The notes beneath the pieces are model-generated. The model did not search any database and was not told the DNA's origin. It worked only from the letters and a program-made list of their open reading frames with translations. Shown piece after piece: positions 11,712 through 35,407 of a stretch of DNA of 36,081 bases. Made by a program: the position numbers and the translations under genes. Every line of letters starts with the position of its first letter. Position 1 is the stretch's first letter. Source of the stretch: Candidatus Curtissbacteria bacterium RIFCSPLOWO2_02_41_11 (GTDB lineage: Bacteria > Patescibacteriota > Microgenomatia > Curtissbacterales > GWA2-41-24); the NCBI GenBank assembly GCA_001775055.1, contig MFBU01000012.1, forward strand, positions 1 to 36,081. Reading direction: 5' to 3'.

Positions 11712-13301
11712 TCAACTCGAAGTTCCTTGGCTTTGTTGATCTATTAGTCTTTTTAACCCTCCCTTTGGTACCCTTTTCGGAGCAGCAAAAGTCGGTAGCC
11801 CTATAGACTCGGCGGCAGCTTCTTGTCTCAGCATTCTTCCTGCCTCGAAGCGTCTAGCAATAGGTCCGCGTTCCCAAGCAGCTCTTCCGGCGCCTCGTGC
11901 GAAGGCACCGACTGGCGCTGCGCCTGCGCCGATGGCCGCACCGATGGCAGCGCCTGGGGCAAAGCCGCCACCGCCACCGCCTTGGCCGCCGACGAATTTC
12001 TTAACCATATTTGCCGCTTCGGGAGCCATGAACAAAAAGCCAATTGCAATCAGTTTGCCAATAGCATTGGAGTCGAATCCGCCGGAAAGAAGCGGGAATT
12101 TAAGTGATTCTCCGGCCATTTGTTTGGATAATTCTCCTGCTCCCGTACCGCCAAAAGCTCCAATACCACCGATTATGCCGGCAAAAATGATCATGAAGGC
12201 AACTGCTGGAAAGACAGCAACATTAGCTGCCATTTGTTTGAACCACTCTTTAGCGCCATTATTGCCCGGAAGAGCCTGGATCAGAAAGAAAAAAGGTGCA
12301 AACATAGTGAGAATAATAATCATCACATAGGCCATTAAAAGCATTAAAAAGATTCTAAACATTATAAAGAGGAGGGCAATACCAACAATCAAAGCGGCAA
12401 TGCCGCTGATACTCCACTTTATTATGCCCACTATATCTCCACCAAAAGTAATGACGTCGTCAATTAAATCCTTCAAGGCATTAGCTGTCATTCCAAAAAT
12501 ATCGGGCCAAGCATCTACAATGACCCCAATAATACTTTTGTCAAAGATAACGCGCGAGGCTTCATCGGCCAAAATGAATCCACTTTGAGCAAAAAGGTTG
12601 ATGGCTATATTGATTATTAAAAACATCAGATCGATCATCAAACCGGCAAGAGCATAGCTAAAGGTAACTAAAATCAAAGCAACAACAATACGCGGTATCG
12701 AATCTTGGACAGTAGCAACGGCTTGAGGCGAGATATGGGCCCTAAACATAATCATAAAGCCCATGATCACAAAGACGATAACAAAGCCGACATATGAGGC
12801 ATTCCTGAAAATCGTCCACAACGGTTGAACCGGGGAGAGTGCAGAAAACCCCACCCCTTCTTGGGCATAAGCAGGTTTAACAGGGTTAAAATCCTGAATT
12901 TTTTGGGCAAAATAACCTACTCCTGATGCTGGTGGAGTTGAATAGAGGCCGGCCACAAGACCGGCAGTTGCATTAAGTGCACCTTTGCCTTGGGTAATGG
13001 TATTGGTTTCAGGATGAAGCCAGGATTCACCCAGAAGATGGGTATTAAGACTGTCGATAGTACCAGCAATTTGATTGAAATTGAATATTTTGTCATCAAA
13101 AATATTTTTTTCAATAGCGCATTTGTTGAATGCATTAATAGTTTCTTGAGAAGTGGCATTAGCTGGTATCTGACAAGTTGCGGCGTGGACTTCCTTAGTG
13201 AATAGTGAATAGTGAATAGTGAATAGAAGTAATATAAAAATTACTATTAACCATTTACCATTAACAATTAACTTGAAATGGTTGGCAGCTTTTTTGATCA
13301 T
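11712..13301 (-). CDS. VirB6/TrbL-like polytopic membrane protein
   Basis: This 529-residue protein has an N-terminal signal-like hydrophobic segment. A soluble region of ~120 residues follows, then a core with several long helices (about residues 165-410, e.g. YVGFVIVFVIMGFMIMF and ALLFIMFRIFLMLLMAYVMI). It ends in a Gly/Ala-rich tail (GGQGGGGGG then AIGAAIGAGAA) and a basic terminus. This layout fits the VirB6/TrbL inner-membrane channel component. The family assignment is from topology and context, not a diagnostic motif. The first ~36 residues are encoded largely by two heptamer arrays, so the exact start is doubtful. Confidence 0.7.
   Translation of the reverse strand: MIKKAANHFKLIVNGKWLIVIFILLLFTIHYSLFTKEVHAATCQIPANATSQETINAFNKCAIEKNIFDDKIFNFNQIAGTIDSLNTHLLGESWLHPETNTITQGKGALNATAGLVAGLYSTPPASGVGYFAQKIQDFNPVKPAYAQEGVGFSALSPVQPLWTIFRNASYVGFVIVFVIMGFMIMFRAHISPQAVATVQDSIPRIVVALILVTFSYALAGLMIDLMFLIINIAINLFAQSGFILADEASRVIFDKSIIGVIVDAWPDIFGMTANALKDLIDDVITFGGDIVGIIKWSISGIAALIVGIALLFIMFRIFLMLLMAYVMIIILTMFAPFFFLIQALPGNNGAKEWFKQMAANVAVFPAVAFMIIFAGIIGGIGAFGGTGAGELSKQMAGESLKFPLLSGGFDSNAIGKLIAIGFLFMAPEAANMVKKFVGGQGGGGGGFAPGAAIGAAIGAGAAPVGAFARGAGRAAWERGPIARRFEAGRMLRQEAAAESIGLPTFAAPKRVPKGGLKRLIDQQSQGTSS
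13198..13275. repeat. Two heptamer arrays within the VirB6-like signal sequence
   Basis: Four perfect GTGAATA units occupy 13198-13225. A second, degenerate period-7 array (ACTATTA, ACCATTT, ACCATTA, ACAATTA) covers 13243-13275. On the coding strand they encode IHYSLFT and NGKWLIV-type residues in the hydrophobic leader (about residues 9-20 and 25-35). One unit gained or lost shifts the frame. Confidence 0.85.
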
Positions 13302-13411: not shown

Positions 13412-14677
13412 TTAGCCGCAGGTTGCGTCCATACCGCATTCTGGACACTTGCGGATGCCGGAGCCATAACGCACGATGTAAGTACAAGGTGAACCATCTT
13501 TTTTAGTGCCAGGGCATTGGAAGTCGCTTTTGTCTTCATCTTCTAATGCGAATGGCGCAAAATCAATAACAGAACTTGCGCGCATTGAGAAAGAAAGATT
13601 TCTCAGAAAACTGGGTTGGTTGAGGGAAAAGCCTTTTTGACCGCCTGGGCAACCAAGGCTGACACTTCGTACTGGTTGTAACCCGTAAAAATTAATAGTC
13701 TGTTCGATAGTTGTAAAATGGGGGACATTGGACACTTTAGCAGTACTTGTCCGAGATCTTCCGTCTAACCTCTTTTTTGTTTCGTCAGCCACATTATAGA
13801 TTGTATTTATCGTTTTCTTGATTTCTTCGAAGTTTAATGGATCTTCGACTAGTATTCTAATGTAATAATCGAAATATGGATTGCAGGCCTCTATGATTTC
13901 TTGGTTTGTTTTTTCTAATTGGGTGTCAAGATCAAGGGCAAAAATCTTCAGAATGTGATCAGTGGGTTTATTGGTGATAATTAATTTTTGCAGAAAATAA
14001 GCTGCGTTGAGTTCATCTGGTTGAGGTTGATCAAAGGCTGGATCTAGTGTTTGGGTTGCTTCAAAAAATCTTTGGTAATCGTGTGTTGAGTGATATCTAG
14101 TCATTGTTATTTTTCCATTTATTTGCTCATAAACATAAAAAAGGTTATCCATATAGAGGGTTCCTTCGGGCCCTCTTGGTGAAATAATTATGATCTTATC
14201 GCCGTCCTGGATTTTCTCTCCAAAGAAAATTGTTTGGATTTGTCTTATGCCTTTAACCTCTGCTGATTCTCTTTTTGTTTCCATACTTCCGTTTTGCGCC
14301 AAAAACTTTCTACCCTTTTCGTACCTTTCGATGACCGGTTCCGGATAGTCTGGGCTTTTTAAAATCCCGTTTTCGATAGAATATTCGACTTGACTGCTTC
14401 TTACTTTAAACCTTTCTCCTAGAGCTTTCGCAAGCTGTCTTTTGGTGCGGTTTATTGTTTGGATTTGCCTTTGAGTAAATTCTTCTGGTGGGATCTTTCC
14501 ATGAAGGTCTGCAAGGTCTAGAAAGTCTTGAATATCGTGTTGAGGGTTGTAACCCATAATCCCCTTGAACTCCTCAGGAATTGACCACTCGACTGGCTTA
14601 TAATGTAAACGAGAAACATCCTCATTTTCTGTGAACTGTGAACTGTGAACTGTGAACTGAGCGCTGCGTTCGGCCAT
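13412..14677 (-). CDS. Unknown protein with C-terminal zinc ribbon, behind a candidate cobalamin riboswitch
   Basis: 421 residues, not recognised. The body is mixed alpha/beta, with segments such as GDKIIIISPRGPEGTLYMDN (about 180-200). The C-terminus holds cysteines 388, 398, 411 and 414 in a CxnC...CPEC arrangement, and a further Cys near the end, which fits a zinc ribbon. The N-terminal residues 6-15 come from a GTGAACT heptamer array and no ribosome site precedes the ATG at 14677. The ATG at residue 42, preceded by AAGGGG, is a possible alternative start. The U-run of an upstream terminator touches the start, so expression is probably controlled by premature termination. Confidence 0.7.
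   Translation of the reverse strand: MAERSAQFTVHSSQFTENEDVSRLHYKPVEWSIPEEFKGIMGYNPQHDIQDFLDLADLHGKIPPEEFTQRQIQTINRTKRQLAKALGERFKVRSSQVEYSIENGILKSPDYPEPVIERYEKGRKFLAQNGSMETKRESAEVKGIRQIQTIFFGEKIQDGDKIIIISPRGPEGTLYMDNLFYVYEQINGKITMTRYHSTHDYQRFFEATQTLDPAFDQPQPDELNAAYFLQKLIITNKPTDHILKIFALDLDTQLEKTNQEIIEACNPYFDYYIRILVEDPLNFEEIKKTINTIYNVADETKKRLDGRSRTSTAKVSNVPHFTTIEQTINFYGLQPVRSVSLGCPGGQKGFSLNQPSFLRNLSFSMRASSVIDFAPFALEDEDKSDFQCPGTKKDGSPCTYIVRYGSGIRKCPECGMDATCG
14631..14658. repeat. Heptamer array GTGAACT x4 in the 5' coding region
   Basis: Four perfect GTGAACT units. On the coding strand they give the QFTVHSSQFT-type N-terminus of the zinc-ribbon protein. A change in unit number would shift the reading frame if translation starts at 14677. 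Confidence 0.9.
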
Positions 14678-14858: not shown

Positions 14859-14931
14859 GCTTAATGTCTAACGACCAACGACTAATGCTTTATTTTTGCG
14901 TTAGTCTTTAGTCTTTTAGCGTTTAGCGCTT
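14859..14931. repeat. Inverted heptamer arrays (hairpin) inside the candidate riboswitch
   Basis: Units GCTTAAT, GTCTAAC, GACCAAC, GACTAAT (14859-14886) face complementary-type units GCGTTA-, GTCTTTA-, AGCGTTT-like (14897-14931) across a T-rich loop. The same inverted design occurs at 2219-2292, 19855-19933 and around the four-helix-bundle gene. Confidence 0.85.
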
Positions 14932-19501: not shown

Positions 19502-19846
19502 CTAGGACCCTCCTGGAATGTTGAATGGTCCTGAAATAACCGTTACCCCAAAAAAGGTCTCCACCAGTTTTATTATAGCAAAAGAGCCAATGATAATAGC
19601 CATACCCAAAAGTCCCCAGTAAATTTGGCTCCAGGCGCTGGAGATATTTTTGCTTTCGCCCCCGGCAAAAATAAAGCGGAATCCGGCAAAGATTGTCCAG
19701 ATTAAATCAACGATAAAGGCGCTAATTAAAAGCAGAGTAATGCCGTTTCTAATTAAAGTAGCCACAAAAACTGAAGGGTCAGCGCCAATATCGGGGACCG
19801 TGCCCGGAGGAGGAGAGATTGTACCAAGGTCAACGGCAAGATTCAT
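19502..19846 (-). CDS. VirB2/TrbC-like pilin-type membrane protein 4
   Basis: 114 residues. There is no classical leader; the N-terminus is a short Pro/Gly/Asp-rich segment. Helix 1 (GITLLLISAFIVDLIWTIFA) is followed by the hallmark loop FIFAGGESKN, helix 2 and FFGVTVISGPFNIPGG. Lacking the leader and the usual TSGGD, it is the most divergent member of the array. Confidence 0.8.
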   Translation of the reverse strand: MNLAVDLGTISPPPGTVPDIGADPSVFVATLIRNGITLLLISAFIVDLIWTIFAGFRFIFAGGESKNISSAWSQIYWGLLGMAIIIGSFAIIKLVETFFGVTVISGPFNIPGGS

Positions 19847-19854: not shown

Positions 19855-19933
19855 GTCTAAAGACAAATGTCTAACGACTAACGCAAAAAAGAACCTACGG
19901 CTTTAGTCTTTAGTCGTTTAGCATTTGGCATTT
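19855..19933. repeat. Inverted heptamer arrays between pilin genes
   Basis: Four units (GTCTAAA, GACAAAT, GTCTAAC, GACTAAC) at 19855-19882 face five complementary-type units (GGCTTTA, GTCTTTA, GTCGTTT, AGCATTT, GGCATTT) at 19899-19933, forming an imperfect hairpin that fills the gap between two pilin genes. Confidence 0.9.
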
Positions 19934-20236: not shown

Positions 20237-20240
20237 ATTC

Positions 20241-20269
20241 GACTAAAGACTAAGGACTAACGACTAAGG
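20241..20269. repeat. Left heptamer arm flanking the four-helix-bundle gene
   Basis: Four exact-period GACTAAN units (N = A, G, C, G). It overlaps the end of the four-helix-bundle gene, whose last residues SLSR and stop are encoded by the arm. It is complementary to the right arm at 20626-20656. Confidence 0.9.
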
Positions 20270-20625
20270 CTTTTGATTAAAGCATTTAGTCGGGCATTAA
20301 GTTTCAAAGAGAAGTCGTAAACTTGATCAAAAGCCTTTTGGCTAATAAACCGCTGATCTAAGGAAATATAAAAACCGGTGACGACTTCATTAATTGAACC
20401 TTGGGCCATTTTCAAAAATCTTCTAAAGTCTGCGTCGGAGCCCTTTGTTGATCCTTCGGCAATATTGAGTGCAATTGAAACAGCTGCTCTTCTTATTTGG
20501 TCGACTAATCCAAAACGTTCTTTGGATGGAAAGTTAGCAGTAATTCTATAAACTAATGATACAAATTCTCTTGCATCTTTCCAAACTTCTAATTTTTCAA
20601 ACCGAAAGTATCCTTTGTTATTCAT
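20257..20625 (-). CDS. Four-helix-bundle protein (23S rRNA IVS / Avd type)
   Basis: 122 residues matching the family first seen in 23S rRNA intervening sequences: FRFEKLEVWKDAREFVSLVY, then LVDQIRRAAVSIALNIAEG with the conserved small-residue helix, then FRRFLKMAQGSINEV. Members form homopentameric barrels of four-helix bundles that probably bind nucleic acid; the related Avd proteins assist diversity-generating retroelements. No reverse transcriptase is seen nearby. It is soluble, unlike its pilin neighbours, and is flanked by complementary heptamer arms. This recalls the way IVS elements carry the same gene inside a stem, so it looks like an insertion into the pilin array. Confidence 0.9.
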   Translation of the reverse strand: MNNKGYFRFEKLEVWKDAREFVSLVYRITANFPSKERFGLVDQIRRAAVSIALNIAEGSTKGSDADFRRFLKMAQGSINEVVTGFYISLDQRFISQKAFDQVYDFSLKLNARLNALIKSLSR

Positions 20626-20656
20626 GCTTTAGTCTTTAGTCGTTAGTCGTTAAGCG
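20626..20656. repeat. Right heptamer arm flanking the four-helix-bundle gene
   Basis: Four period-seven units of the NTTAGTC type (CTTTAGT, CTTTAGT, CGTTAGT, CGTTAAG) immediately upstream of the four-helix-bundle ATG. It is the inverse of the left arm at 20241-20269. Confidence 0.9.
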
Positions 20657-20663
20657 AGTAGTA

Positions 20664-21389
20664 TCAAACGATTCCACTATTACCCAAAAACAGCTTATCA
20701 ACTATCTGCAAAATGGCAAAAGCCAGAACAATGATCACAAAGCCGATGATGGCAAAAGTCAATCTGCCGCGGGCTGCGGCTGCCGCCTCCGGATTGCCGC
20801 CGGATGTTACAAACTGAATGCCGGAGATGAGGATGATAATGACGGTGACAAAACCGGCGATGCCAAGAAGAGCTGGAAGAAATGCTGAAATAATTTTACC
20901 GACAAGGCCCTGTTCGGTGAATTCTGGCTTTAAACCCAGGACAGCAATATCAGAAAGACAATCTATAAATCCTTGACAGGCGGCACCGCCGGCTCCCCCG
21001 CCACCAGCACGGGTCACAGAAAAGCTTGGACAATCGGAGAGCGCGCCACCGTAAGTATAAAGCCCAGCATAGTAAGTACCAGCGGGTGCATTTACCCAAG
21101 AATAATGATGAGAAGCCGAACTAATGTAATTAAAAGTTATGGGAAATGGCGAAATCTGGGCTATAGCAGAAGGACAACCGCTGGCAACTATTGGCCAAAC
21201 TCCTAAATAATAAGTATCGCCAATCGACAATTCCGGTATTTCTTCCCAGGAGATAGTGATAGCAGTGCCATCATCAAAGACAGTTAAAGGGACAGTAGCA
21301 TAAACATTGTTGGGAGGTTTAAGCAGACTGGGAATAAATAGTATAAAGCTGAAGGTTAGGGCTAAAGATAAATGTGCGATGAATTTCAT
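20664..21389 (-). CDS. Two-domain pilin-like protein 2
   Basis: 241 residues: a signal peptide (ending near NNVYATV), an extracytoplasmic beta-rich domain of ~100 residues (TAITISWEEIPELSIGDTYY and a C-terminal Cys-containing part), then a Gly-rich linker and the two-helix pilin domain with FVTSGGNPEAAAAARGRLTF. The start ATG directly follows the stop of the gene before it (TAAATG), so the two are coupled. The extra domain could display an adhesive or structural module on the pilin base (inference). Confidence 0.8.
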   Translation of the reverse strand: MKFIAHLSLALTFSFILFIPSLLKPPNNVYATVPLTVFDDGTAITISWEEIPELSIGDTYYLGVWPIVASGCPSAIAQISPFPITFNYISSASHHYSWVNAPAGTYYAGLYTYGGALSDCPSFSVTRAGGGGAGGAACQGFIDCLSDIAVLGLKPEFTEQGLVGKIISAFLPALLGIAGFVTVIIILISGIQFVTSGGNPEAAAAARGRLTFAIIGFVIIVLAFAILQIVDKLFLGNSGIV

Positions 21390-22121
21390 TTAGAAACTGG
21401 GAATCGCTCCAAATAAAGTGACACCAATAAAGCGTAAAATCAGAAATGAAAAGATCAAAAATAAAAGACCAGCAATGGCAGCCACAATCATGTCTCGTCC
21501 ACCGGCTAGCTTTTGCTGATCACCGGAAGAGGTCAATACGCGGATTGAGCCAATGACCATCAAAATTAAAGCAATGCCGCCGGCAAGGCCAATGGCAATA
21601 TTTAAAACTCTTTGGGCAAAGCCGCCTACAGATGTTGGGATATTTCCCAGAGCGGTTTCGCATCCTGCTCCAGTACAGGGATTTTTGCCAGAGGTGCCAA
21701 ATGACGTTGATTCAACAACGTTATACGAGTATTCACCGCATTTAAAAGCAGGCGTTGGAGGAAGGGTGTTTGGTACAAACCACCATGCGAAGTAATGCCT
21801 TCCTTCTTCTGAGAATCCAGGTAAAAGTGCTCGCCAGGTCTCGCCGCTGGGGAGAACTTCCATTGTTATCCAATTGGCCCATTCACCGTCTATTTTAAAT
21901 TTATAGTTGCCGGGGTCAGTGAAAAGAGGGTCTGTAGGGCTAACAGGTGGCGTAAAGTCAGCAAGCGGTTGTTGAAACAGAGGAACACTTTCTGAGTCAG
22001 GCACCATGTGGGAATATTGCGCACAATCTGCTTGATCGAATGCTTTCAATGGGGTTGTGCGGTTAACTAGTCCGGTGATGATAAAGAGTATGATGATTAA
22101 TAATTTAAAAATTATTCTCAT
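21390..22121 (-). CDS. Two-domain pilin-like protein 1, first gene of the array
   Basis: 243 residues: a signal peptide (IIFKLLIIILFIITGLVN), an extracytoplasmic domain (about 25-145) rich in Pro, Trp and aromatic residues with several cysteines, then the pilin domain with VLTSSGDQQKLAGGRDMI between two helices. It leads the minus-strand array. A TAAAGAAC stretch precedes the ATG. The promoter probably lies in the repeat-rich 22122-22428 region, but I could not fix it. Confidence 0.8.
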   Translation of the reverse strand: MRIIFKLLIIILFIITGLVNRTTPLKAFDQADCAQYSHMVPDSESVPLFQQPLADFTPPVSPTDPLFTDPGNYKFKIDGEWANWITMEVLPSGETWRALLPGFSEEGRHYFAWWFVPNTLPPTPAFKCGEYSYNVVESTSFGTSGKNPCTGAGCETALGNIPTSVGGFAQRVLNIAIGLAGGIALILMVIGSIRVLTSSGDQQKLAGGRDMIVAAIAGLLFLIFSFLILRFIGVTLFGAIPSF

Positions 22122-22150: not shown

Positions 22151-22284
22151 GTGACTAAGGACTAATGATGAGAAAGCGTCTGGCGGTTAGGGTAACGAAG
22201 CCAGTATCGTTTAGCGTTTAGTGTCTAGCGTAAATGACACGATTAACGTAACCACCTCACGAAACGGGCATCGTCACTCTAACC
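22151..22284. repeat. Complex repeat block: heptamers plus inverted 28-bp repeat
   Basis: This covers most of the 307-bp divergent gap between the pilin array and the SpoIID gene. GACTAAN units lie at 22152-22166 and CGTTTAG units at 22208-22221. A 28-bp repeat (22182-22209) and its inverted, diverged copy (22260-22284) pair as GGTTAGGGTAACGA with TCGTCACTCTAACC. No gene is present. Confidence 0.75.
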
Positions 22285-27000: not shown

Positions 27001-27009
27001 AGAATAGTG

Positions 27010-27408
27010 TGGAGATGCCGGGCTGTGAACCCGGGTCCAAGATCGAAAGTTAAAAACATCTACAAGCTTAGTTAATCTTTAATGTCTCGTCCAATCTCTT
27101 TGCCGATTAACAAGCAGAAACTGGACAAAGATCAAAAGTTTCATCTCGCCCATTTGATCAAATGGGCGGACTACTCCCGGCTAAGTTTGTGCCTTGAAAA
27201 CCTCACCGAGAAAAGGCCAACAAGACAAGCTCAAAAAGCTTTGCTTATGCAGCAAATGCTAGAGCTGGCTGCCTGATACCAATAATGGCACCAACCAGTT
27301 GTGCAAGTTTGTTCTTTGCACGCAATTTGATTCAAAGTTTGACGCACTTTAGAATCGTATTCGGCTTGCAGTTTTTAAAGTGCGATCCTGTCGAAACGAT
27401 ACATCCCC
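27010..27408 (-). ncRNA. ssrA: tmRNA (transfer-messenger RNA)
   Basis: The minus strand begins GGGGATG at 27408, followed by the hallmark CGTTTCGACAGG, and ends GACCCGGGTTCACAG-CCCGG-CATCTCC at 27011. The T-arm is intact and the 5' GGGGATG pairs with 3' CATCTCC (one G-U). The tail element AACTAAGCTTGTAGATG also matches the conserved tmRNA 3' half. The tag frame ends GCT CTA GCA TTT GCT GCA TAA (stop at 27247-27245). With the resume codon at GCA 27319-27317 the tag is 24 residues, beginning AKNKLAQ and ending ALAFAA. CCA is not encoded. The 64-codon plus-strand ORF here is an artefact. smpB lies 1.7 kb away. Confidence 0.95.
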
Positions 27409-27409
27409 T

Positions 27410-27556
27410 CGTCGCAATAATTCCTTTTGGTTTTCGTCCGCCAGCTGGCGGACTTCAAACTAAGTCGTATTGCTCCTCTTCAAAACTCTTACGAGTTTTG
27501 AGAAAAAGAATTTGAAATGGCAAAGGGACGTCAGACGTTCCAGTGCCAGATTCAAA
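27410..27556 (+). repeat. Multi-hairpin element, copy A, next to the tmRNA gene
   Basis: Begins CGTCGCAATA one base from the tmRNA 5' end. Closing stem GCAATA (27414-27419) with TATTGC (27468-27473); inner perfect palindrome 27436-27453 (GTCCGCC/GGCGGAC); second hairpin CAAAACTC-TTAC-GAGTTTTG (27481-27500); third long stem 27510-27556 (ATTTGAA.TGGCA / TGCCA..TTCAAAT). The layout and conserved words (CGTCGCA, TTCAA, AAGTC, TGCTCCTCTTCAAAA) match copies B and C. Confidence 0.75.
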
Positions 27557-27614
27557 TCATTTTAGTAGAACAGAAATGAATTTTAGCAAAAATTAAGCTT
27601 TGAATCAAATAATG

Positions 27615-27620
27615 TAAAAT
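27615..27620 (+). promoter_or_regulatory. -10 box six bases before the GT-C-like gene
   Basis: TAAAAT preceded by TG, six bases from ATG 27627, with no ribosome site: a leaderless arrangement. Confidence 0.55.
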
Positions 27621-27626
27621 TAAAAA

Positions 27627-29096
27627 ATGACAAAGAATTTACTTGTCAAAATTGGACTATTCACTTTCATTTTTTTACTTTCACTTAAAGTTATCACTGA
27701 CACCGATTTAGGTTGGCACATCCGGGTGGGAGAATACATCCTTAAGACATTAAGCGTTCCTAAAACCGACTTATTTTCTTTCTCTCAACCAGACTACCCC
27801 TATGTTTACCACTCTTGGGCAACAGAGCTAATAATTTTTGCCAGTTATAAATGGTTGGGGCTGTGGGGGATAACACTTCTTTATGCATCAATCATCACAT
27901 TAAGTGTCTTTTATCTCTATAGAACCAGTGTCCTTATCAATGGAAAAATTAATTATCTCCTTTTTCTTTGGGTAGCTCCTTTGGCATTTGCCTTTGCCGG
28001 AGGAAGAACGAGAGCTATGGGTTTTCTTTTGCTTTCCATTCTTTATCTGCTATTTGTGAAATTCCAGCTTAAAAATTCTCGAGCGATTTGGCTTGCGCCC
28101 CTTATTTTCTTTTTGTGGGCAAATCTTCACGGTTCATTCATTTTGGGTTTTGGGGTTTTTGCGGTTTTGATTGCGACCTTGCGATTTTTTCCAAAAGAAA
28201 ACCAAAATAGGCCAAAGTTTAAAAGTCTTTTGATAATTTTCTTTTTCTCGCTAGTTAGCACGCTGGCTACCCCTTATTTTTTTGGTGCATGGAAACAGGC
28301 AGTCGTAATGACGCTGAATTCCACACTGGCTTTAAGGTCTACTAATCTGGACTGGAAATCGCTAGTTGAGCCATCCGGTGGTGGTTTGATTTTTGCCACG
28401 ATAGTGGCAGTAGTAATTTTTATGCTTTTCTTTAGCAAAAGCAAAGTTAGCAAAATCCAGAAATTTTTATTGCTTTTGTTTTTCATTTTGTCGCTTTTAA
28501 CTGCAAGATTTGCGCTGCCTTTATTAATCTTCTTTGTACCAATCGCCAATCAGTTTCTTGAAGATCTGAAGTCAAGATTAAATAAACAAGTTCTAAACTC
28601 AACATCTATAAAAGGTTTCGTATCGGTTCTTTATTTAGTCTTATCACTTAGTGTACTTATTAATCTTATTGAAACTAATTTCGCCAACAGATCTTTCAAC
28701 GAGTACAGTTATTATTTGGAAAAATTCTCCTCGGCTCGACTTCTATATCCACCATGGCCGTACGAGGCTAATCTTTTTATTCAAGAAAATTTACCGGACA
28801 TGAGAATTCTTGCTGAAGCCAATTGGGGTGGCTACATGATTTGGCTCAATCCCGGACAAAAGGTTTTTTACTGGGGGGCCATGGATAATTTTATAGTTAA
28901 TGGCCGCTCTTTTGTCTTTGAATATCTAAATATTATCAACACCAAACCGAACTGGGAAGAAAAATTAAACCAGTATAAAATTGATGCCGTTTTTCTGCCG
29001 AAAGAGTTCCCATTGGTTGCTGTTTTGAATCTAAGAGAAGATTGGCAGAAAGTTTACGACAGGCAGGATGTTGTTATCTTCACAAAAAGAAACTAA
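27627..29096 (+). CDS. GT-C-like polytopic membrane protein, possible glycosyltransferase
   Basis: 489 residues with about ten membrane helices followed by a C-terminal soluble part (about 370-489). The first outer loop DTDLGWHIRVGEYILKT, followed by VPKTDLFSFS and HSWATELIIF, resembles the acidic catalytic loop of GT-C glycosyltransferases (Asp pair, then WH and G..I). Polyprenyl-linked sugar transfer at the membrane is expected for that class; donor and acceptor are unknown. It sits between ssrA and smpB. Its stop overlaps the smpB stop by three bases (convergent). Confidence 0.75.
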   Translation: MTKNLLVKIGLFTFIFLLSLKVITDTDLGWHIRVGEYILKTLSVPKTDLFSFSQPDYPYVYHSWATELIIFASYKWLGLWGITLLYASIITLSVFYLYRTSVLINGKINYLLFLWVAPLAFAFAGGRTRAMGFLLLSILYLLFVKFQLKNSRAIWLAPLIFFLWANLHGSFILGFGVFAVLIATLRFFPKENQNRPKFKSLLIIFFFSLVSTLATPYFFGAWKQAVVMTLNSTLALRSTNLDWKSLVEPSGGGLIFATIVAVVIFMLFFSKSKVSKIQKFLLLLFFILSLLTARFALPLLIFFVPIANQFLEDLKSRLNKQVLNSTSIKGFVSVLYLVLSLSVLINLIETNFANRSFNEYSYYLEKFSSARLLYPPWPYEANLFIQENLPDMRILAEANWGGYMIWLNPGQKVFYWGAMDNFIVNGRSFVFEYLNIINTKPNWEEKLNQYKIDAVFLPKEFPLVAVLNLREDWQKVYDRQDVVIFTKRN

Positions 29097-29530
29097 TCCT
29101 GTTCTTTAAGCTCCCTTTCAATATCCCGATTAATTGTTTGCTTCTTTAAAGCGGCTCGTCTGTCAAACTTGGCCTTGCTTTTGGCAAGAGCCAACTCAAC
29201 TTTGGCCAAATTTCCCTTAATGTAAATTGAAAGAGGTACTAGTGTCAGATTTTTGCCGGCGATTTTGCCTTGCCAATTCAAAATTTGTCGCCTGTGAAGA
29301 AGTAATTTTCGCTGGCGTCTGGCATCGCTAAATTTCTCCGATCCTTTCCAAGGGAGAATATGGGCGTTGACCAAAAAAACCTCGTCCTCTTTAACCCTGG
29401 CAAAACTTTCGGAAAGATCGACGCGTCCAGCTCTTATTGATTTTATTTCGGCGCCAGTTAAAACTATCCCAGATTCAACTTTTTCCAGAATTTGATATTT
29501 GTGACGAGCCTTTCGGTTAAAAATTTTCAC
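29093..29530 (-). CDS. smpB: SsrA-binding protein SmpB
   Basis: 145 residues from a GTG start: VKIFNRKARHKYQILEKVES, then the family signature GIVLTGAEIKSIR, RVDLSESFARV and the basic tail KFDRRAALKKQTINRDIERE. SmpB binds tmRNA and delivers it to stalled ribosomes. A longer frame reaching 29722 would overlap comF on the other strand and adds 64 unlike-family residues, so GTG 29530 is preferred. That GTG is seven bases downstream of TATTAT. The partner ssrA is in the same window. Confidence 0.95.
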   Translation of the reverse strand: MKIFNRKARHKYQILEKVESGIVLTGAEIKSIRAGRVDLSESFARVKEDEVFLVNAHILPWKGSEKFSDARRQRKLLLHRRQILNWQGKIAGKNLTLVPLSIYIKGNLAKVELALAKSKAKFDRRAALKKQTINRDIERELKEQD

Positions 29531-29536
29531 TAGCCA

Positions 29537-29543
29537 TATAATA
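29537..29543. promoter_or_regulatory. Shared divergent -10 of smpB and comF
   Basis: The plus strand reads TATAAT at 29537-29542 (nine bases before the comF ATG); the minus strand reads TATTAT at 29543-29538 (seven bases before the smpB GTG). The gap between the two start codons is only 21 bp, so each -35 region must lie in the other gene. Confidence 0.6.
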
Positions 29544-29551
29544 TCAGATAG

Positions 29552-30226
29552 ATGGCCTTGTCTTTTCTTGATCTTCTTTTCCCCAAACGCTGCGTTTCCT
29601 GCGGCAAGTTTGGCGCGTATATCTGCAAAAGCTGTTTTTCCAAGATTGAATTTATCGAAAAACCGGTTTGTCCAGTTTGCCAAAGGCAGGCAATTGGAGG
29701 TAAAGTCCATCCGGGTTGCCAAGGAAGATATCGGCTTGACGGTTTGGTTGTTGCCGCCCGTTACCGCGGGCCGGTTAAAAGTGCCATTGCCAAGGTCAAA
29801 TATAAATGGGTTTATGATATCGGTAAGACTTTAGTTGATCTTTTAGCCGCCAGTCTTTGGCGCTTTGGAATTCCTGATGATTTAATATTGGTACCTATTC
29901 CGCTCCATACACGCCGCAAAAATTGGCGCGGGTTTAATCAGGCGGAAATTTTGGCAAAAAGTTTATCGTTGAAATTTAATCAGCCTTATGGTGAATATCT
30001 TGCGCGAATTATTGAAACCGCAAGTCAGGTAGGGTTAAAGAGGGATGAGCGCCAGAAGAATGTCAAAGAGGCTTTTAGATTGAGAACAGGTGCGGATGTT
30101 TCTGGGAAGAATATTTTGCTTGTCGATGATGTTTATACCAGCGGGGCGACAATGACTGAGTGTTGCAAAGTTTTAAAAAAGGAAGGAGCAGGCGAAGTTT
30201 GGGGGATGGCTGTGGCGCTTGGATAG
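29552..30226 (+). CDS. comF: ComF-family phosphoribosyltransferase-like protein
   Basis: 224 residues. Zinc-finger cysteines C14/C17, C25/C28 and C40/C43 (CVSCG, CKSC, CPVC) are followed by a phosphoribosyltransferase fold with RYRGPVKSAIAKVKY, VPIPLHTRRKNWRGFNQAE and the PRPP loop ILLVDDVYTSGAT (188-200). ComF acts in the uptake and handling of transforming DNA in naturally competent bacteria; CPR bacteria commonly keep com genes. Leaderless-type promoter shared with smpB. Confidence 0.93.
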   Translation: MALSFLDLLFPKRCVSCGKFGAYICKSCFSKIEFIEKPVCPVCQRQAIGGKVHPGCQGRYRLDGLVVAARYRGPVKSAIAKVKYKWVYDIGKTLVDLLAASLWRFGIPDDLILVPIPLHTRRKNWRGFNQAEILAKSLSLKFNQPYGEYLARIIETASQVGLKRDERQKNVKEAFRLRTGADVSGKNILLVDDVYTSGATMTECCKVLKKEGAGEVWGMAVALG

Positions 30227-30259
30227 GATGGTTAATTCTGATAAAATATCAAAGCTTAA

Positions 30260-30345
30260 GGTGGGTTGCCTGAGTGGTTTAAAGGGGCGGTTTGCTAAAC
30301 CGTTGGCGCGAAAGTGTCACACAGGTTCGAATCCTGTACCCACCG
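30260..30345 (+). tRNA. tRNA-Ser (GCT)
   Basis: Acceptor GGTGGGT/ACCCACC, anticodon stem-loop GCGGT-TTGCTAA-ACCGT with anticodon GCT (reads AGC/AGU), a long variable arm as in class II tRNAs, and T-arm ACAGG-TTCGAAT-CCTGT. Discriminator G; CCA not encoded. Confidence 0.95.
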
Positions 30346-30541
30346 CAGCGTCGCAACTAGACTTTAATATTTCGCCCTTCGCTAAACTTAGGGCTTCAAG
30401 TTAAGTCTGTTGCTTCTTTCAAAATCGCAAGCGATTTTGAAATTTTTACCAAATTTCATTGAAATTTGGAGAGGAGAAATACGAGCGCCAATAGAGTTTT
30501 TCTAAAAGAAAAACGACAAATAGCACGAGTTATTTCGACGC
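30346..30541 (+). repeat. Multi-hairpin element, copy B, filling the gap between two tRNA-Ser genes
   Basis: Starts CGTCGCAAC at 30349. Closing stem GCAAC.AGACTT (30353-30364) with AAGTCTGTTGC (30403-30413); inner hairpin GCCCT/AGGGC (30374-30394); perfect 12-bp hairpin 30417-30442 (loop AA); 9-bp hairpin CCAAATTTC/GAAATTTGG (30449-30469); outer GAAATA/TATTTC enclosing GTTTTTC/GAAAAAC (30496-30514). It ends CGACG directly at the next tRNA. Confidence 0.75.
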
Positions 30542-30628
30542 GGAGGCGTCGCATAGTGGACTAGTGCGGTTGTCTTGAAAACAACTAGGGCAGCAATGCC
30601 CTCAGAGGTTCGAATCCTCTCGCCTCCG
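30542..30628 (+). tRNA. tRNA-Ser (TGA)
   Basis: Acceptor GGAGGCG/CGCCTCC, anticodon arm GTTGT-CTTGAAA-ACAAC with anticodon TGA (UCA and wobble), long variable arm, T-arm AGAGG-TTCGAAT-CCTCT, discriminator G. Confidence 0.95.
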
Positions 30629-30733
30629 CCGCTGTAAGTTTTAACTGAAATTTTCTCTATATTTGTAACAAGAGACTAGAAATAATAACTTTTTTCTATA
30701 AAATATGGTATATTTTCGTCTGAACTTAAAACC

Positions 30734-30790
30734 ATGGTGAAAGAGCACAGCATAGATGACATAGTGGATTACAGGAGGCTTCCAGGATAG
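30734..30790 (+). other. 18-codon in-frame segment ending in TAG upstream of the J-like gene
   Basis: ATG at 30734 opens MVKEHSIDDIVDYRRLPG and meets TAG at 30788-30790. The same frame continues, with protein-like residues ERYSVNEWIAMYLG, into the J-like gene. Either the gene originally started here and carries a nonsense change, or this is an unused upstream frame. Promoter-like TATAAA and TATATT words lie at 30698-30718. Confidence 0.45.
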
Positions 30791-30820
30791 GAACGCTATT
30801 CTGTCAATGAGTGGATAGCG

Positions 30821-31957
30821 ATGTACTTAGGCCAATTGGGAATGGATTATGCCCAAGAAAGTTTGCGCGAGCTATTATCAGAATACGGATATACGGGCAA
30901 CCGTCCAGAAATCTTGTTTGGCATTTATGATTTTCTGGCAAACGAATCTGATGAAGCACTTGTGCACGGAATTAGAGCGTATGAGCTCTCAGGCCATGAC
31001 ATTGAGCGGGTTGCAAAGCTGATTAATCCAGACAGGCTGGTTGCCTACATAATTGATGTTACAGATGAAACAGAAACCCTAGCAAATCTTCAGGAAAAAT
31101 TGTTCTACGCTTCTGACATACGTTCACAGTTTTCAGGGCTTGGTTCTATGGGTTCTAGGTATAGGTCTAGGTCTGCCCAAAAAAGCAATTGCGCAAATTC
31201 AATTGTTGAGTTAGGATTGGAAATTAACTCAAGGCTTGCAGAAATTGATCCACACAATGCTGAAGTTTTGAAATCTTATGATTTTAAGGAATGGTCTGGA
31301 TTGTACAATATGCGCAGGCAGGCGCTTCAAATAGCAGTTCTTGCCCAGCAGCATCTTACAGAAGCATCCGAAGAAACACTAAGAATCCTTTCAATATATG
31401 ACAGCTTAACCGGGACAGCAGATATTCGCGGTCTAGACTATGATGTGCTTGATGCATTTATGCGAAAAAAATTGGATTTGGGCAAGCCGTCTTCCGACGG
31501 AAAAATCCCTGATGCTTTCAAAGCAGATGCATATTATGAGGACAGACGGGTATTTGGAGGAATCAATCGGGAGCAGGAATGGAGAATGAGACATTTCGGA
31601 AGGCAAAGGAAGGATTGGGAGCTACATCAGGAATACCGAGACCAAAGCCAAGAGCGAAGAGAGGAAGATCAAGCTAAGCTTGAAGACGATTATCGAAGAA
31701 TGATTGAAGATCCTTGGGCTTATTATTCCAGCCAACTTGAATTGCTTGGGCTTACCAAAGAAATGACTCTTGCCGAGGCAAAAAGAGCATTCAGGAGAGA
31801 AGTTCATAAGTACTCTTCCGCGTTCAATACCCTTTTTAACACGAGCCCCGAATATACAGCATCGCAGGAAGCGGCAAAGGCGGTCCTGTCTGCATGGGAA
31901 TCAGTATCCGCCCTTTATAAAGCAAAGGAGGCGGCAGAAGCATCAACTACCGTCTAG
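30821..31957 (+). CDS. Unknown protein with C-terminal J-like domain lacking HPD
   Basis: 378 residues, helical and charged. The last ~75 residues (YYSSQLELLGLTKEMTLAEAKRAFRREVHKYSS) follow the J-domain pattern of a Y..LGL opening, then an AFR-rich helix II, but HPD is replaced by HKY, so Hsp70 stimulation is unlikely. The first 200 residues show repeated short helices and are not recognised. No clear ribosome site lies at 30821; a perfect AGGAGG is 45 bases upstream with no start after it. The same frame is open back to the TAG at 30788. The gene may therefore be a truncated or disrupted form of a longer one. Confidence 0.65.
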   Translation: MYLGQLGMDYAQESLRELLSEYGYTGNRPEILFGIYDFLANESDEALVHGIRAYELSGHDIERVAKLINPDRLVAYIIDVTDETETLANLQEKLFYASDIRSQFSGLGSMGSRYRSRSAQKSNCANSIVELGLEINSRLAEIDPHNAEVLKSYDFKEWSGLYNMRRQALQIAVLAQQHLTEASEETLRILSIYDSLTGTADIRGLDYDVLDAFMRKKLDLGKPSSDGKIPDAFKADAYYEDRRVFGGINREQEWRMRHFGRQRKDWELHQEYRDQSQERREEDQAKLEDDYRRMIEDPWAYYSSQLELLGLTKEMTLAEAKRAFRREVHKYSSAFNTLFNTSPEYTASQEAAKAVLSAWESVSALYKAKEAAEASTTV

Positions 31958-32118
31958 TTTAACCAAGGATTTATTCAAGCAGAAGAAGATAAATATCTGG
32001 TATTATGATCCTTATAATAAGTTCCAACATAGTCCTTCCAGAGGTGGGCAGGCAATCAGGCACCGCTTGGTGATTGCAAATCTTGCTTTTAAAAAATATC
32101 GTCTTTACTATTAAACTT

Positions 32119-32523
32119 ATGCGAGGGTTCGCTATCTTACCTGTAATCATTTTTCTGGTAATAGTTGGTGGACTGGGGATTAGTTGGTATACGTTATCTG
32201 TCCGCCAGCAAACAAAAACAGAGGTTGTTTCACCTGGAAATCAAGTTGATAGCTGCAACATCATTAGTAATTCGGTTTTTCGTTCAGTTGATAAGCATGA
32301 AGTTGGGCTTGGACCAAATGGTCCGGCCATGGGATATTGGAGCATAACTTTTCAAAGTGGGAATTTTCAATGGCATCATTCAGATGTTGTCGAGAGCGGA
32401 ACATATACTTGCACTGAGAATATTTTACAAGCAAAACTTTACAATAGGACTGTTACTGCAAATTACGACATAAATCGAAAGGCTTTAATTTGGGATGGTG
32501 TTGAATACAAAAGAGGCGAGTAA
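32119..32523 (+). CDS. Small secreted or anchored protein
   Basis: 134 residues from ATG 32119 (an in-frame ATG at 32074 adds 15 unlikely residues). The N-terminus RGFAILPVIIFLVIVGGLGI resembles the opening of a type IV pilin-like or signal-anchor segment, but the Glu5 of true pilins is absent. The remainder is a ~100-residue beta-rich domain with two cysteines (DSCNI, TYTCTENI). Function unknown. Confidence 0.65.
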   Translation: MRGFAILPVIIFLVIVGGLGISWYTLSVRQQTKTEVVSPGNQVDSCNIISNSVFRSVDKHEVGLGPNGPAMGYWSITFQSGNFQWHHSDVVESGTYTCTENILQAKLYNRTVTANYDINRKALIWDGVEYKRGE

Positions 32524-32581
32524 AGCGTAAATTTCATAAAGTAAGTTCCAATAATAATTGTGATACACTTGAGTTAGATAC

Positions 32582-33157
32582 ATGCCCAACTTTCGTAAAA
32601 GCGAACACCATATTGATCATCATTCCGGCCGAATTCTTTCCAAAGAAGAGTTAGACGCCAAGCATCAGGCGGCACTGGAAGCCAAAGCGCAAGTTACCTG
32701 GAAATCTCCGGAGCGAATTTTTAAAGCCAGATCCAAAAAATATTTCACCAAAGTTGCCCTTTACGCTCTGATTTTTGTTTTGGCGGCGATTGCTTTTGGT
32801 GAATTTTTCTTAGTCGGCGTAATTATTGCCGTTGTTTTCGTCGTCTATGTTTTGGCAACTGCCGCACCCAATGTAATCGAACATAAAATTACTAACATGG
32901 GCATAACCTCCGGAGGACGGGCGTTCTTATGGGAGGAACTTGATTCATTTTGGTTTGAAAAACGCGGCGATGACCGGCTTTTAATGGTTGCGACAGAACT
33001 GCATTTTCCCACCCGCTTAATTATTCTTCTGACTTCGGTTTCCGAAAGGACGCTTCTTGATATTGTGGAAAAGCACCTCCATTATCATTCGGCTCCGGTG
33101 CATACCCTTTTTGACAAGTGGGCCCACACTCTGCAGAAGAGAATAAATTTGGAGTAA
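32582..33157 (+). CDS. Membrane protein with two helices and a PH-like C-terminal domain
   Basis: 191 residues: a charged, His-containing N-terminus, two adjacent helices (VALYALIFVLAAIAFGEFF and VGVIIAVVFVVYVLATA), then a beta-rich domain (IEHKITNMGITSGGRAFLWEELDSFWFE) similar in pattern to small bacterial PH domains. It ends in a helical basic tail. No exact family claimed. A -10-like TACACT lies 12 bases before the ATG. Confidence 0.75.
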   Translation: MPNFRKSEHHIDHHSGRILSKEELDAKHQAALEAKAQVTWKSPERIFKARSKKYFTKVALYALIFVLAAIAFGEFFLVGVIIAVVFVVYVLATAAPNVIEHKITNMGITSGGRAFLWEELDSFWFEKRGDDRLLMVATELHFPTRLIILLTSVSERTLLDIVEKHLHYHSAPVHTLFDKWAHTLQKRINLE

Positions 33158-33178
33158 AGAATTTCCCAATAATTTAAG

Positions 33179-33709
33179 TTAATTTGGATGCGGGCGACCT
33201 GATATTTGTAGTCTTTCTTCGAGTTGGTTTAAAATATAGGCAATATTTTCATAGTCTCCTCCTGAAAGTGTTGTGTCCTGGTTGATTTCTTCTCCCAGAA
33301 GCCGCGAAAAGTCATTTTGTTGCGGCCAATCTTTCACATCTGCCAATGGGTTAACCGGTACTAGAAAGTGAAATTTTCCAGCAGATCCATTTTTATCAAA
33401 CCAGTATTGGACTTTATGGCGGAGTGGCACTTTATATTCACCTTGAGGATCTTCGGTATCCGGTTCATACGGATTGTAGGGATTGAGTTCTAAGTTATAT
33501 TTTCTCCGGTGTCCAATTGTTTGGATCCATGACGGAATGATAAATCTCCCATCGACCTTAAACCCTTCAAATGAGACGTAACCAATACGTTCTTTCACAG
33601 CAGCTGGTGTTATCCATGTTCTTGCGACAATTCGCTCAATTCTTACAGCGCTTGCTCGATGGAGTGGTCTTAGTTCAGGCGTTACGGCAGATTGTCTAGC
33701 TCTTTCCAT
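33179..33709 (-). CDS. Uncharacterised protein immediately downstream of tRNA-Ser(CGA)
   Basis: 176 residues, soluble, with IGYVSFEGFKVDGRFIIPSW, a Tyr/Asn/Pro-rich middle (NLELNPYNPYEP) and VQYWFDKNGSAGKFHFLVPV. No family recognised. Its ATG is 18 bases from the 3' end of tRNA-Ser(CGA) on the same strand, with no terminator or ribosome site between, so it probably shares the tRNA transcript. TAATAATA lies directly before the ATG. Confidence 0.65.
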   Translation of the reverse strand: MERARQSAVTPELRPLHRASAVRIERIVARTWITPAAVKERIGYVSFEGFKVDGRFIIPSWIQTIGHRRKYNLELNPYNPYEPDTEDPQGEYKVPLRHKVQYWFDKNGSAGKFHFLVPVNPLADVKDWPQQNDFSRLLGEEINQDTTLSGGDYENIAYILNQLEERLQISGRPHPN

Positions 33710-33726
33710 TATTATTACTTACGTGG

Positions 33727-33813
33727 CGGAGGAGGTGAGATTCGAACTCACGTGGGCCTTGCGACCCCAGCCGTTTTCGAGACGGTGCCCTTAAACCACT
33801 TGGGTACTCCTCC
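33727..33813 (-). tRNA. tRNA-Ser (CGA)
   Basis: Acceptor GGAGGAG/CTCCTCC, anticodon loop CTCGAAA with anticodon CGA (UCG), long variable arm, T-arm GTGAG-TTCGAAT-CTCAC, discriminator G. The outermost anticodon-stem pair is A-C. Confidence 0.95.
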
Positions 33814-33819
33814 TGGTAG

Positions 33820-33893
33820 TGCGCCCAAAGGGACTCGAACCCCCAACCCCAACCTCCGCAAGGTTGTGCTCTATCCAATTGAGCTATGGGCGC
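33820..33893 (-). tRNA. tRNA-Arg (GCG)
   Basis: Acceptor GCGCCCA/TGGGCGC, anticodon arm CAACC-TTGCGGA-GGTTG. The anticodon is GCG, whereas most bacteria use ACG edited to ICG for CGN codons. T-arm loop TTCGAGT. Six bases from tRNA-Ser(CGA) on the same strand. Confidence 0.93.
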
Positions 33894-33941
33894 ATAAAAG
33901 CAAACAAATTATATCCTATTTCTGGTAAAATCTCTAAGCCA

Positions 33942-34013
33942 ATGTCAATTAAGCGAATTTTTAGTGCTGGGGGAATCGTATCTAAAAAAATTAGGCTGCA
34001 GCAAACCCTCTAG
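33942..34013 (+). pseudogene. Truncated Nudix gene 5' end
   Basis: ATG 33942 encodes SIKRIFSAGGIVSKK, nearly identical to the Nudix start at 34664 (PIKRIFSAGGIVIRK). The upstream TCTGGTAAAAT promoter word is also duplicated (33921-33931 and 34644-34654). The copy diverges after ~20 codons and stops at 34013, with no Nudix box. The toxin-antitoxin-like pair lies between the two copies. Confidence 0.75.
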
Positions 34014-34227
34014 CATGAAGGACGTCATTACTTTTTGTAGGACGAACGTCAGATGCTTTTAGCGTCACAAGCGCTACTGTTCTGCCGGTTGCTGTAACAA
34101 ACTCTACTTCTGCTGCATTACCATTGTCGTAGACATTTACCACAGCTCCTATGTCGCCTTCTTTAAGACCATGCTTTTTAATACCGTGGGTCAGTACAAT
34201 TGTTTCAAGTTCTGTAAATTTGTGCAT
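33991..34227 (-). CDS. DUF4926-like small protein, candidate antitoxin/immunity partner
   Basis: 78 residues from ATG 34227: MHKFTELETIVLT, then GLKEGDIGAVVNVYDNG and AAEVEFVTATGRTVALVTL, matching the compact beta-barrel pattern of DUF4926 proteins. A longer frame to 34299 adds a Cys-rich stretch that runs back into its neighbour and is not family-like. It starts 14 bases after the 34242 gene stop, so they form one unit. The antitoxin role is an inference from the usual pairing of these two families. Confidence 0.7.
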   Translation of the reverse strand: MHKFTELETIVLTHGIKKHGLKEGDIGAVVNVYDNGNAAEVEFVTATGRTVALVTLKASDVRPTKSNDVLHARGFAAA

Positions 34228-34241
34228 ATATTTGTTCTTTA

Positions 34242-34574
34242 TTATACAGGATACGCAGTTACAAAGCGAGGCGCACTCTTGGCATTTTGGGCGAACCAAA
34301 CAGTAGTTATCGTTACTTTTCTTCTAGTGGGTGTTTCAATTATTCCGTTGATAGCGTAATTAATACCATATTCAAATTTTCTCTCTTCTTTTACATCATT
34401 TGCACGAGCTATTTTTAAAAGTGCTTTTGTAAGCTCATCTATATTTGATTCATTAAACCCAAGTTCACGAAAGAATCTGGACTTTGTACTTCCTACAGGA
34501 TGTGTTTCCGATAGTAAATAACTTGTTAATTTTTCTTGAGGAATATGGGCTTTTTTACGGTAAGGAAGCTTCAT
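34242..34574 (-). CDS. DUF6883-like small protein, candidate toxin partner
   Basis: 110 residues: MKLPYRKKAHIPQEKLTSYL, HPVGSTKSRFFRELGF, ending VTITTVWFAQNAKSAPRFV then TAYPV. The pattern HPVG.SK..FF..LGF and the W...YPV-type end is that of DUF6883 domains, found alone and at the C-termini of polymorphic toxins. A TATGAT box lies eight bases before the ATG, suggesting a leaderless transcript. Toxin activity is unproven. Confidence 0.7.
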   Translation of the reverse strand: MKLPYRKKAHIPQEKLTSYLLSETHPVGSTKSRFFRELGFNESNIDELTKALLKIARANDVKEERKFEYGINYAINGIIETPTRRKVTITTVWFAQNAKSAPRFVTAYPV

Positions 34575-34648
34575 GTATTTTCATCATAGCATCACTCTGT
34601 GAGTTTGAGAGAATAAATAAGAACAAAGTTAAAATAATCCAAATCTGG

Positions 34649-34654
34649 TAAAAT
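34649..34654 (+). promoter_or_regulatory. -10 box nine bases before the Nudix start
   Basis: TGGTAAAAT (extended -10 form) lies nine bases before ATG 34664, with no ribosome site. The same word precedes the truncated copy at 33942. Confidence 0.55.
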
Positions 34655-34663
34655 TTGCCTGTT

Positions 34664-35149
34664 ATGCCGATCAAACGAATTTTTAGTGCAGGGGGAATCG
34701 TTATTAGGAAAAGTATAAAAAGTACGAGAGGTACGAGAAATACGAAAGGAATTGAAGTTTTAGTCACCCAGCATTCGGGGCATAAGGGTTGGGATTTTCC
34801 CAAAGGCCATCGGGAAATTTATGAATCCGAGGAGCAGACAGCGCTAAGGGAAGTTGAGGAGGAGGTTGGGATAAAGGCTTCGATTATCGAAAAGGCTGGG
34901 CAAACGCAATATTTTTATTATGAAGAAGGCGAGCGGGTTTTAAAGACAGTGGTTTTTTACTTGATGAAATATCTGGGAGAAGGTGAAGCAAGTACGGCGT
35001 TTGAGGTTTCTGCTAAAATCTGGCTGCCGATTGATAAAGTTGAAGAAAGGTTGACGTTTAAGGATACAAAGCAACTTTGGCTTAAAGTTAAGCCAAAGAT
35101 TGCACAATTAACCCGCCGTCGCCAAGGCTTTTGGCGGGCAGGCATTTGA
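34664..35149 (+). CDS. Nudix hydrolase
   Basis: 161 residues. The Nudix box is complete: GHREIYE (48-54), seven residues, REVEEEVGI (62-70), which binds Mg and hydrolyses nucleoside-diphosphate-linked substrates. KGWDFPKGH before it resembles the MutT/diadenosine-polyphosphate group. Residues 19-28 (TRGTRNTKG) come from an internal 9-bp tandem repeat (about 34712-34740). The last ~12 residues (RRRQGFWRAGI) are encoded by a REP-type hairpin. A truncated second copy of its 5' end lies at 33942. Confidence 0.9.
   Translation: MPIKRIFSAGGIVIRKSIKSTRGTRNTKGIEVLVTQHSGHKGWDFPKGHREIYESEEQTALREVEEEVGIKASIIEKAGQTQYFYYEEGERVLKTVVFYLMKYLGEGEASTAFEVSAKIWLPIDKVEERLTFKDTKQLWLKVKPKIAQLTRRRQGFWRAGI
35112..35137. 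repeat. REP-type hairpin forming the Nudix C-terminus
   Basis: CCGCC/GGCGG with inner CGCCAA/TTGGCG. It resembles the CCCGCC..CGCCAAGGC class of dispersed repeats seen in uncultured bacterial genomes. It may also serve as a weak terminator. Confidence 0.6.
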
Positions 35150-35176
35150 CGTTTGACAGTTAATACAAAGACAAAA

Positions 35177-35197
35177 GCTTAACGACTAATGACTAAA
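35177..35197. repeat. Heptamer array GACTAAN
   Basis: Three units (GCTTAAC, GACTAAT, GACTAAA) in the gap between the Nudix gene and tRNA-Ser(GGA). Two TTTGACR units lie just before at 35145-35158. Confidence 0.85.
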
Positions 35198-35203
35198 GCT
35201 TGG

Positions 35204-35290
35204 CGGAGAGGGAGGGATTCGAACCCTCGATAACCTTGCGGCTATACGGCATTTCCAGTGCCGCCCGTTCGGCCACTCCGGCACCTCTCC
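35204..35290 (-). tRNA. tRNA-Ser (GGA)
   Basis: Acceptor GGAGAGG/CCTCTCC, anticodon arm CGGCA-CTGGAAA-TGCCG with anticodon GGA (UCC/UCU), long variable arm, T-arm GAGGG-TTCGAAT-CCCTC, discriminator G. Confidence 0.95.
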
Positions 35291-35332
35291 TCGAATATTG
35301 TATTTTAGCATATAATTATAGCGTTTTATCAT

Positions 35333-35405
35333 GTGCCTGTAGCTCAGTGGAAAGAGCACTGACCTCCGGAGTCAGGGGTCGGGAGTTCGAGTCTCCCCAG
35401 GCACG
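35333..35405 (+). tRNA. tRNA-Arg (CCG)
   Basis: Acceptor GTGCCTG/CAGGCAC, anticodon arm CTGAC-CTCCGGA-GTCAG with anticodon CCG (CGG), T-loop TTCGAGT, discriminator G. Divergent from tRNA-Ser(GGA) across 42 bp of AT-rich promoter sequence. Confidence 0.95.
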
Positions 35406-35407
35406 CA

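Follow-up and report, generated by a model that had tools for sequence, protein, structure and literature searches.

The window, the 36,081-nucleotide stretch of DNA analysed here (contig C12 of a 1.08-Mb genome in 25 contigs, 99.8% complete), carries between two T4SS-pilin-like genes what is best read as a minimal mobile cassette of the rRNA intervening sequence (IVS) class, living outside rRNA; from sequence comparison, we would put the probability of this reading at roughly 0.7. The unit, of about 430 bp in general and at most 427 nt in the window, consists of a tandem array of a 7-nt word, a single ORF of the four helix bundle (FHB) family, and then the same array in reverse complement. 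Comparison of sites, from which we infer all mobility events, shows both arms to be part of the insertion. The parts of the cassette, and further arrays of its word in the window, are as follows:

20237-20663, minus strand: insert between two T4SS-pilin-like genes, whose junction is bare in two relatives
20257-20625, minus strand: FHB (S23 / 23S_rRNA_IVP) gene, 122 aa, with PF05635 and TIGR02436 profile matches
20629-20655, minus strand: degenerate heptamer array GCTTAACGACTAACGACTAAAGACTAA, the arm that lies upstream in the gene's sense and pairs with the downstream arm in the predicted RNA fold
20240-20267, minus strand: downstream arm, an NTTAGTC array in the gene's sense, GACTAAN x4 on the plus strand
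19855-19932 (also given as 19855-19930), no strand assigned: gene-less inverted GACTAAN array (hairpin) at the next pilin junction
14866-14913, no strand assigned: gene-less inverted GACTAAN array, intergenic
22153-22165, plus strand: solo GACTAAN array upstream of the pilin gene 21390-22121
35177-35196, plus strand: solo GACTAAN array adjoining a tRNA-Ser gene

The preliminary description had assigned the gene to the protein type carried by 23S rRNA IVSs, and profile searches agree, with matches of 20257-20625 to PF05635 (E=2.9e-34, 117.9 bits, cut-off 33.8) and to TIGR02436, four helix bundle protein (E=1.2e-32, 112.3 bits, cut-off 24). In the PDB, the window protein matched 2gsc, XCC0516 of Xanthomonas (E=2.7e-22), which is a toroidal homopentamer in the account of Lin et al. 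2006 given in PMC4990558. FHB proteins are mildly basic as a family, with a median net charge of +4, and no nuclease or polymerase domain was found in FHB. Moreover, the PF05635 gene is the only one between the arms, where the Y1 (HUH) transposase that marks a REPtron is absent. Searches bearing on a role in anti-phage defence gave no PADLOC match for the window FHB, and carriage by a phage or virus was rejected, no relatives being found in the phage collection or in the viral contigs queried with it. To our knowledge, the function of the S23/IVP family has never been known since its discovery in rRNA inserts.

The anatomy of the arms was also largely as first described. The left arm (20240-20267, CGACTAAAGACTAAGGACTAACGACTAA) comprises four GACTAAN units and encodes the last residues of the FHB gene, as had been noted, together with its stop codon; the right arm (20629-20655, TTAGTCTTTAGTCGTTAGTCGTTAAGC), given previously as four NTTAGTC units, has three exact units and one that is degenerate. 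The six pilin-like genes said to be interrupted were recovered around the FHB gene, four of them above the T4SS_pilin cut-off and one below it in a profile search, and the gene at 19502-19846 being weakly similar to the pilin at 20664-21389.

An S23 ORF between terminal inverted repeats, a trait of the 23S rRNA IVS, is thus found at the window locus, and arm 20629-20655 places tandem heptamers upstream of the S23 start, as in Coxiella. The 23S rRNA IVS of that bacterium is 428 nt long, with a terminal stem of 28 bp and with GACAGAT heptamers in tandem ahead of its S23 ORF (PMC4990558); IVP ORFs have been reported in inserts of both 16S and 23S rRNA of CPR bacteria (PMC11270868). The likeness to rRNA IVSs with an S23 ORF (Coxiella, Leptospira; PMC4990558) therefore covers protein family, size, stem-forming terminal inverted repeats and heptamers upstream of the ORF. 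Unlike these, the window cassette is flanked by protein genes of an operon, in an mRNA setting and in a window without any rRNA match; heptamers occur in both arms, and many words and empty sites are found among its relatives.

The preliminary description had proposed to look for an empty pilin site in related genomes, and such sites were found: in two relatives (L182, L188) the junction is bare, the stop codon being directly followed by the start of the next pilin gene. Another genome (G003; L183/L150) has a different FHB cassette with different arms at the same junction, and three more (G005, G011, G014) hold gene-less heptamer hairpins or arrays there, with the GACTAACG word in G011. Furthermore, Nostoc plasmids about 86-95% identical at their T4SS operon offer a second comparison. 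At junction B, five (L218-L222) are empty and three (L203, L216, L217) carry an FHB cassette with GGAGTCA arms, these arms being arrays of the kind known from cyanobacteria as short tandemly repeated repetitive sequences (STRRs); junction C is mostly empty, with another FHB cassette bearing GGGAAAAG arms in L219; and junction A has gene-less GGAGTCA hairpins in some plasmids, nested in two, and none in others. A gene-less GGAGTCA hairpin also lies inside the FHB ORF of L216. In Nostoc, array and gene were gained together at a site without a prior array. Empty and filled orthologous sites, the signature of a mobile element, hence exist both at the pilin junction and on the Nostoc plasmids. No clear target duplication was seen on comparing L216 with L203 and L217, and two further sites gave ambiguous candidates, TTCTA and ATG. 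In Algoriphagus, the cassette sits between the same two transporter genes in opposite orientations (L113, L114 and L132 against L115), as if by inversion between the arms or by separate insertion.

A survey of the flanks of other FHB genes, likewise suggested at the outset, showed arms to be the rule. It covered 140 non-duplicate FHB loci, 64 of them in the GTDB family to which the window belongs and 76 in genomes of many phyla; selected on similarity to the window protein or on family membership, they are not a random sample. The 150 nt upstream were locally aligned with the reverse complement of the 150 nt downstream, with dinucleotide shuffles as reference and start codons assigned by a simple rule. 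Flanks were mutually complementary at 116/140 loci at p<=0.05 and at 91/140 at p<0.005, significant arms being missing in 24/140; the median alignment score was 29.5, against 16 for mismatched flank pairs. In direct orientation, just 22 of the same 140 loci had similar flanks at p<=0.05, and among ordinary genes of the window's genome 4/82 reached p<=0.05. Strong arrays were present at 84 loci, with period 7 in 64 of the 84, and in none of any shuffled set. The median arm of significant loci is 33 nt long; on the upstream side it stops 15 nt short of the start codon, and on the downstream side it begins 2 nt past the stop. The outcomes that had been set against the preliminary description, namely relatives that all lacked arms or no empty site anywhere, did not occur; arms are usual and empty sites exist.

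The genome of the window, of CPR type to judge from the bacteria closest to it, has eight PF05635 matches, and arms are visible by eye at most of these loci with a different word at each, the words including GGCATTA, GTAGATA, GACTAAN, AGAGTNN, GAAACTN and 9-mers; L004 is weak in the alignment test, and L008 is part of a diversity-generating retroelement (DGR). In a tree of 138 proteins the eight genes fall in eight separate places and would thus have been acquired separately, which rules out amplification of whole cassettes within this genome; the scatter over the tree was counted in favour of the mobile-cassette reading, and the lack of any sign of such amplification against it.

In general, the word differs between FHB lineages and agrees between the two arms of one locus. 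When arms and proteins were compared (cross-arm, in non-coding sequence only, for pairs at different sites), pairs with a protein score >=0.6 shared arms in 35% of cases, against 2.8% with arms shuffled among loci. For inter-phylum pairs at the same protein score, similar arms were found in 46%, against 3.4% with shuffling within phyla (p=0.0005). As an example, AGTCCAT-type arms accompany one FHB clade in Nitrospirota (L120), Omnitrophota (L136, L107) and Bacteroidota (L111, L079). This match between lineage and word suggests that FHB recognises the word or the stem of its own lineage.

The GACTAAN arms are not unique to the FHB gene, since gene-less arrays of the same unit occur elsewhere in the window. 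With up to two mismatches, GACTAANGACTAA has 17 occurrences in the window, where 2.1 would be expected (0/100 shuffles reach 17), and exact matches genome-wide number 25, against 1 for the reversed control; about 18 GACTAAN arrays lie outside the cassette in the genome. The hairpin at the next pilin junction (19855-19932) folds as ssDNA at -11.7 kcal/mol, against -5.8 kcal/mol for shuffles (z -3.1). In a census of about 116 kb (the window and four further stretches of the same genome), some 14 period-7 arrays of many words occur without any FHB, where about one was expected. These scattered heptamer arrays are probably gene-less relatives of the cassette. As arrays without a gene are far more numerous than FHB genes, the role of FHB may be that of a passenger or a regulator, and not of the mobility protein.

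The defining trait of STRRs, tandem arrays of a degenerate 7-nt word scattered through intergenic DNA, is therefore present in a host that is not a cyanobacterium. Heptamer arrays of cyanobacteria, Xanthomonas and Beggiatoaceae have no known cause (PMC4692102, PMC4679880); they were reported to have no general association with mobile elements (PMC4692102), and a transfer mechanism was not evident (PMC4679880). The present arrays resemble these STRR or intergenic heptamer repeats in their degenerate 7-nt words and intergenic tandem arrangement, but these two papers (PMC4692102, PMC4679880) do not tie their arrays to FHB genes. In our literature search, whose scope excluded preprints and most subscription journals, no paper connected FHB genes with inverted arrays of heptamers outside rRNA.

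Two other kinds of element invite comparison. In REPtrons, a RAYT gene, which encodes a Y1 HUH transposase, is bounded by inverted copies of short palindromic REP/BIME sequences, and many copies without a gene are scattered over the rest of the genome. The FHB cassette shares this plan of one gene within inverted repeats and many gene-less copies, but FHB has no catalytic domain and its repeats are tandem heptamers. MITEs are small gene-less inverted-repeat insertions that nest in each other, as the gene-less arm pairs are and do; in contrast to MITEs, these pairs have neither a parent transposase nor a clear target-site duplication.

As a mechanism for the mobile cassette, we infer that the arms would snap into a stem in single-stranded nucleic acid, either DNA at the replication fork or the transcript, and that a ring of FHB may then recognise its own lineage's word or stem. 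Cutting and joining would be left to host enzymes, because FHB is devoid of a nuclease, polymerase or catalytic domain, and insertion of the product would leave no clear target duplication. Arm pairs that lack a gene could be internal deletions, or copies moved in trans. Lasting copies would be those that sit between operon genes and along transcription, where read-through expresses FHB. By a simple longest-ORF test, the cassette is co-directional with both neighbours at 93 loci and opposed to both at 9, which fits read-through expression and, equally, a route through RNA.

Such a route, in which RNase III cuts the transcript at its stem, as it does in rRNA IVSs, and the excised RNA moves by reverse transcription or reverse splicing, is the alternative that deserves most attention, although we consider it rather unlikely. 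Besides the co-orientation with the host operon, which the need for read-through expression could equally produce, it draws on the pairing of the arms in the predicted transcript (-104.2 against -93.1 kcal/mol, z -1.96), on the excision of the Coxiella IVS by RNase III in vitro (PMC4990558), and on the absence of a visible target duplication. On the other side, the arm mismatches hold 122 G-U against 143 A-C pairs, and since G-U is not in excess the stem is not visibly maintained for pairing in RNA. In addition, G008 and G010, two genomes 94-96% complete, each carry nine FHB genes but lack a reverse transcriptase; such an enzyme was accordingly rejected as the partner, the only one in the window's own genome belonging to the DGR. 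A self-splicing intron, of group I or group II, was likewise discarded, with no Rfam match at gathering score in 20.2-20.7 kb. The preliminary description had suggested a mobile or self-excised cassette in an mRNA: an inserted unit of mobile type with the anatomy of an rRNA IVS is upheld, but self-excision from mRNA is not, given that no self-splicing intron was found at the site and that the arm mismatches gave no sign of selection for RNA pairing.

It is more doubtful still that the arrays are host repeats, produced by slippage or a REP-like process, in which FHB genes land or which they attract. The many FHB-free period-7 arrays of many words (14 in 116 kb) and the roughly 18 GACTAAN arrays outside the cassette would be expected from such a process; however, words follow the FHB lineage across phyla, the Nostoc site without an array gained array and gene jointly, and the flanks of other genes have no such arms.

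If the gene were inherited vertically and the arms were its ordinary regulatory hairpin or terminator, this would account for arms lying close to the codons (medians of 15 nt before the ATG and 2 nt after the stop), yet such a reading is very improbable in view of the empty sites, the different cassette at the same junction, the eight unrelated FHB lineages in one genome, and the make-up of the arms from degenerate tandem words.

The last possibility, that the gene is an Avd-like accessory protein of a DGR, can be practically dismissed: Avd is a four-helix bundle of related fold (weak NF033474 match) and the genome has one DGR, but the window gene scores 20.2 bits against an Avd cut-off of 80, has no reverse transcriptase, template repeat or variable repeat nearby, and lies apart from that DGR, which has the genome's only reverse transcriptase and its own divergent FHB (L008) on another contig (C24). 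The DGR itself (L201, about 4.4-8.0 kb of C24) is complete, with reverse transcriptase, template and variable repeats and the Avd-like FHB gene, which is oriented opposite to the reverse transcriptase; its repeats differ at 25 aligned positions, 23/25 of which are A in the template.

Beyond the window locus, we tentatively raise a wider proposal, which we hold to be possible and not probable: FHB rings could be mobility proteins of a new kind, lacking nuclease and polymerase domains, with each lineage recognising its own 7-nt word in the form of inverted tandem arrays and moving an element of about 430 bp through host enzymes. The class would then take in rRNA IVSs, cyanobacterial STRRs and the dispersed heptamer arrays of CPR and Bacteroidota, either as members or as derivatives without the gene. 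If this were true, the FHB element would be among the smallest autonomous mobile elements. The link between gene lineage and array word, together with the empty sites and the gene-less derivatives, joins two questions, the function of S23/IVP and the origin of heptamer repeats, and makes both testable; it would also account for much of the intergenic heptamer clutter of CPR and Nostoc genomes, including protein ends coded by heptamers.

Several minor observations were made along the way. In the C5 stretches of the same genome (L177-L178), a dozen more period-7 arrays of many words occur in 40 kb, none recognised as FHB arms. The window has heptamer arrays of TAGTGAA (13194-13228) and GTGAACT (14627-14662) within the ORFs 11712-13301 and 13412-14677, where they code for LFTIHYSLFT- and AQFTVHSSQFT-like stretches close to the N-termini. 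Elsewhere in the window, a region of about 9 kb (27007-35406) contains six tRNA genes, four for Ser and two for Arg, along with a tmRNA (27007-27408). In Margulisiibacteriota (L069, L073), FHB cassettes seem, by eye from the flanks, to sit right behind the 3' end of a tRNA. Finally, on cyanobacterial plasmids (L204, L208) FHB cassettes lie in CRISPR-Cas operons, in one case between cas6 and cas4 and in the other between cas10 and cmr3, where such neighbours could pass for Cas accessory genes.
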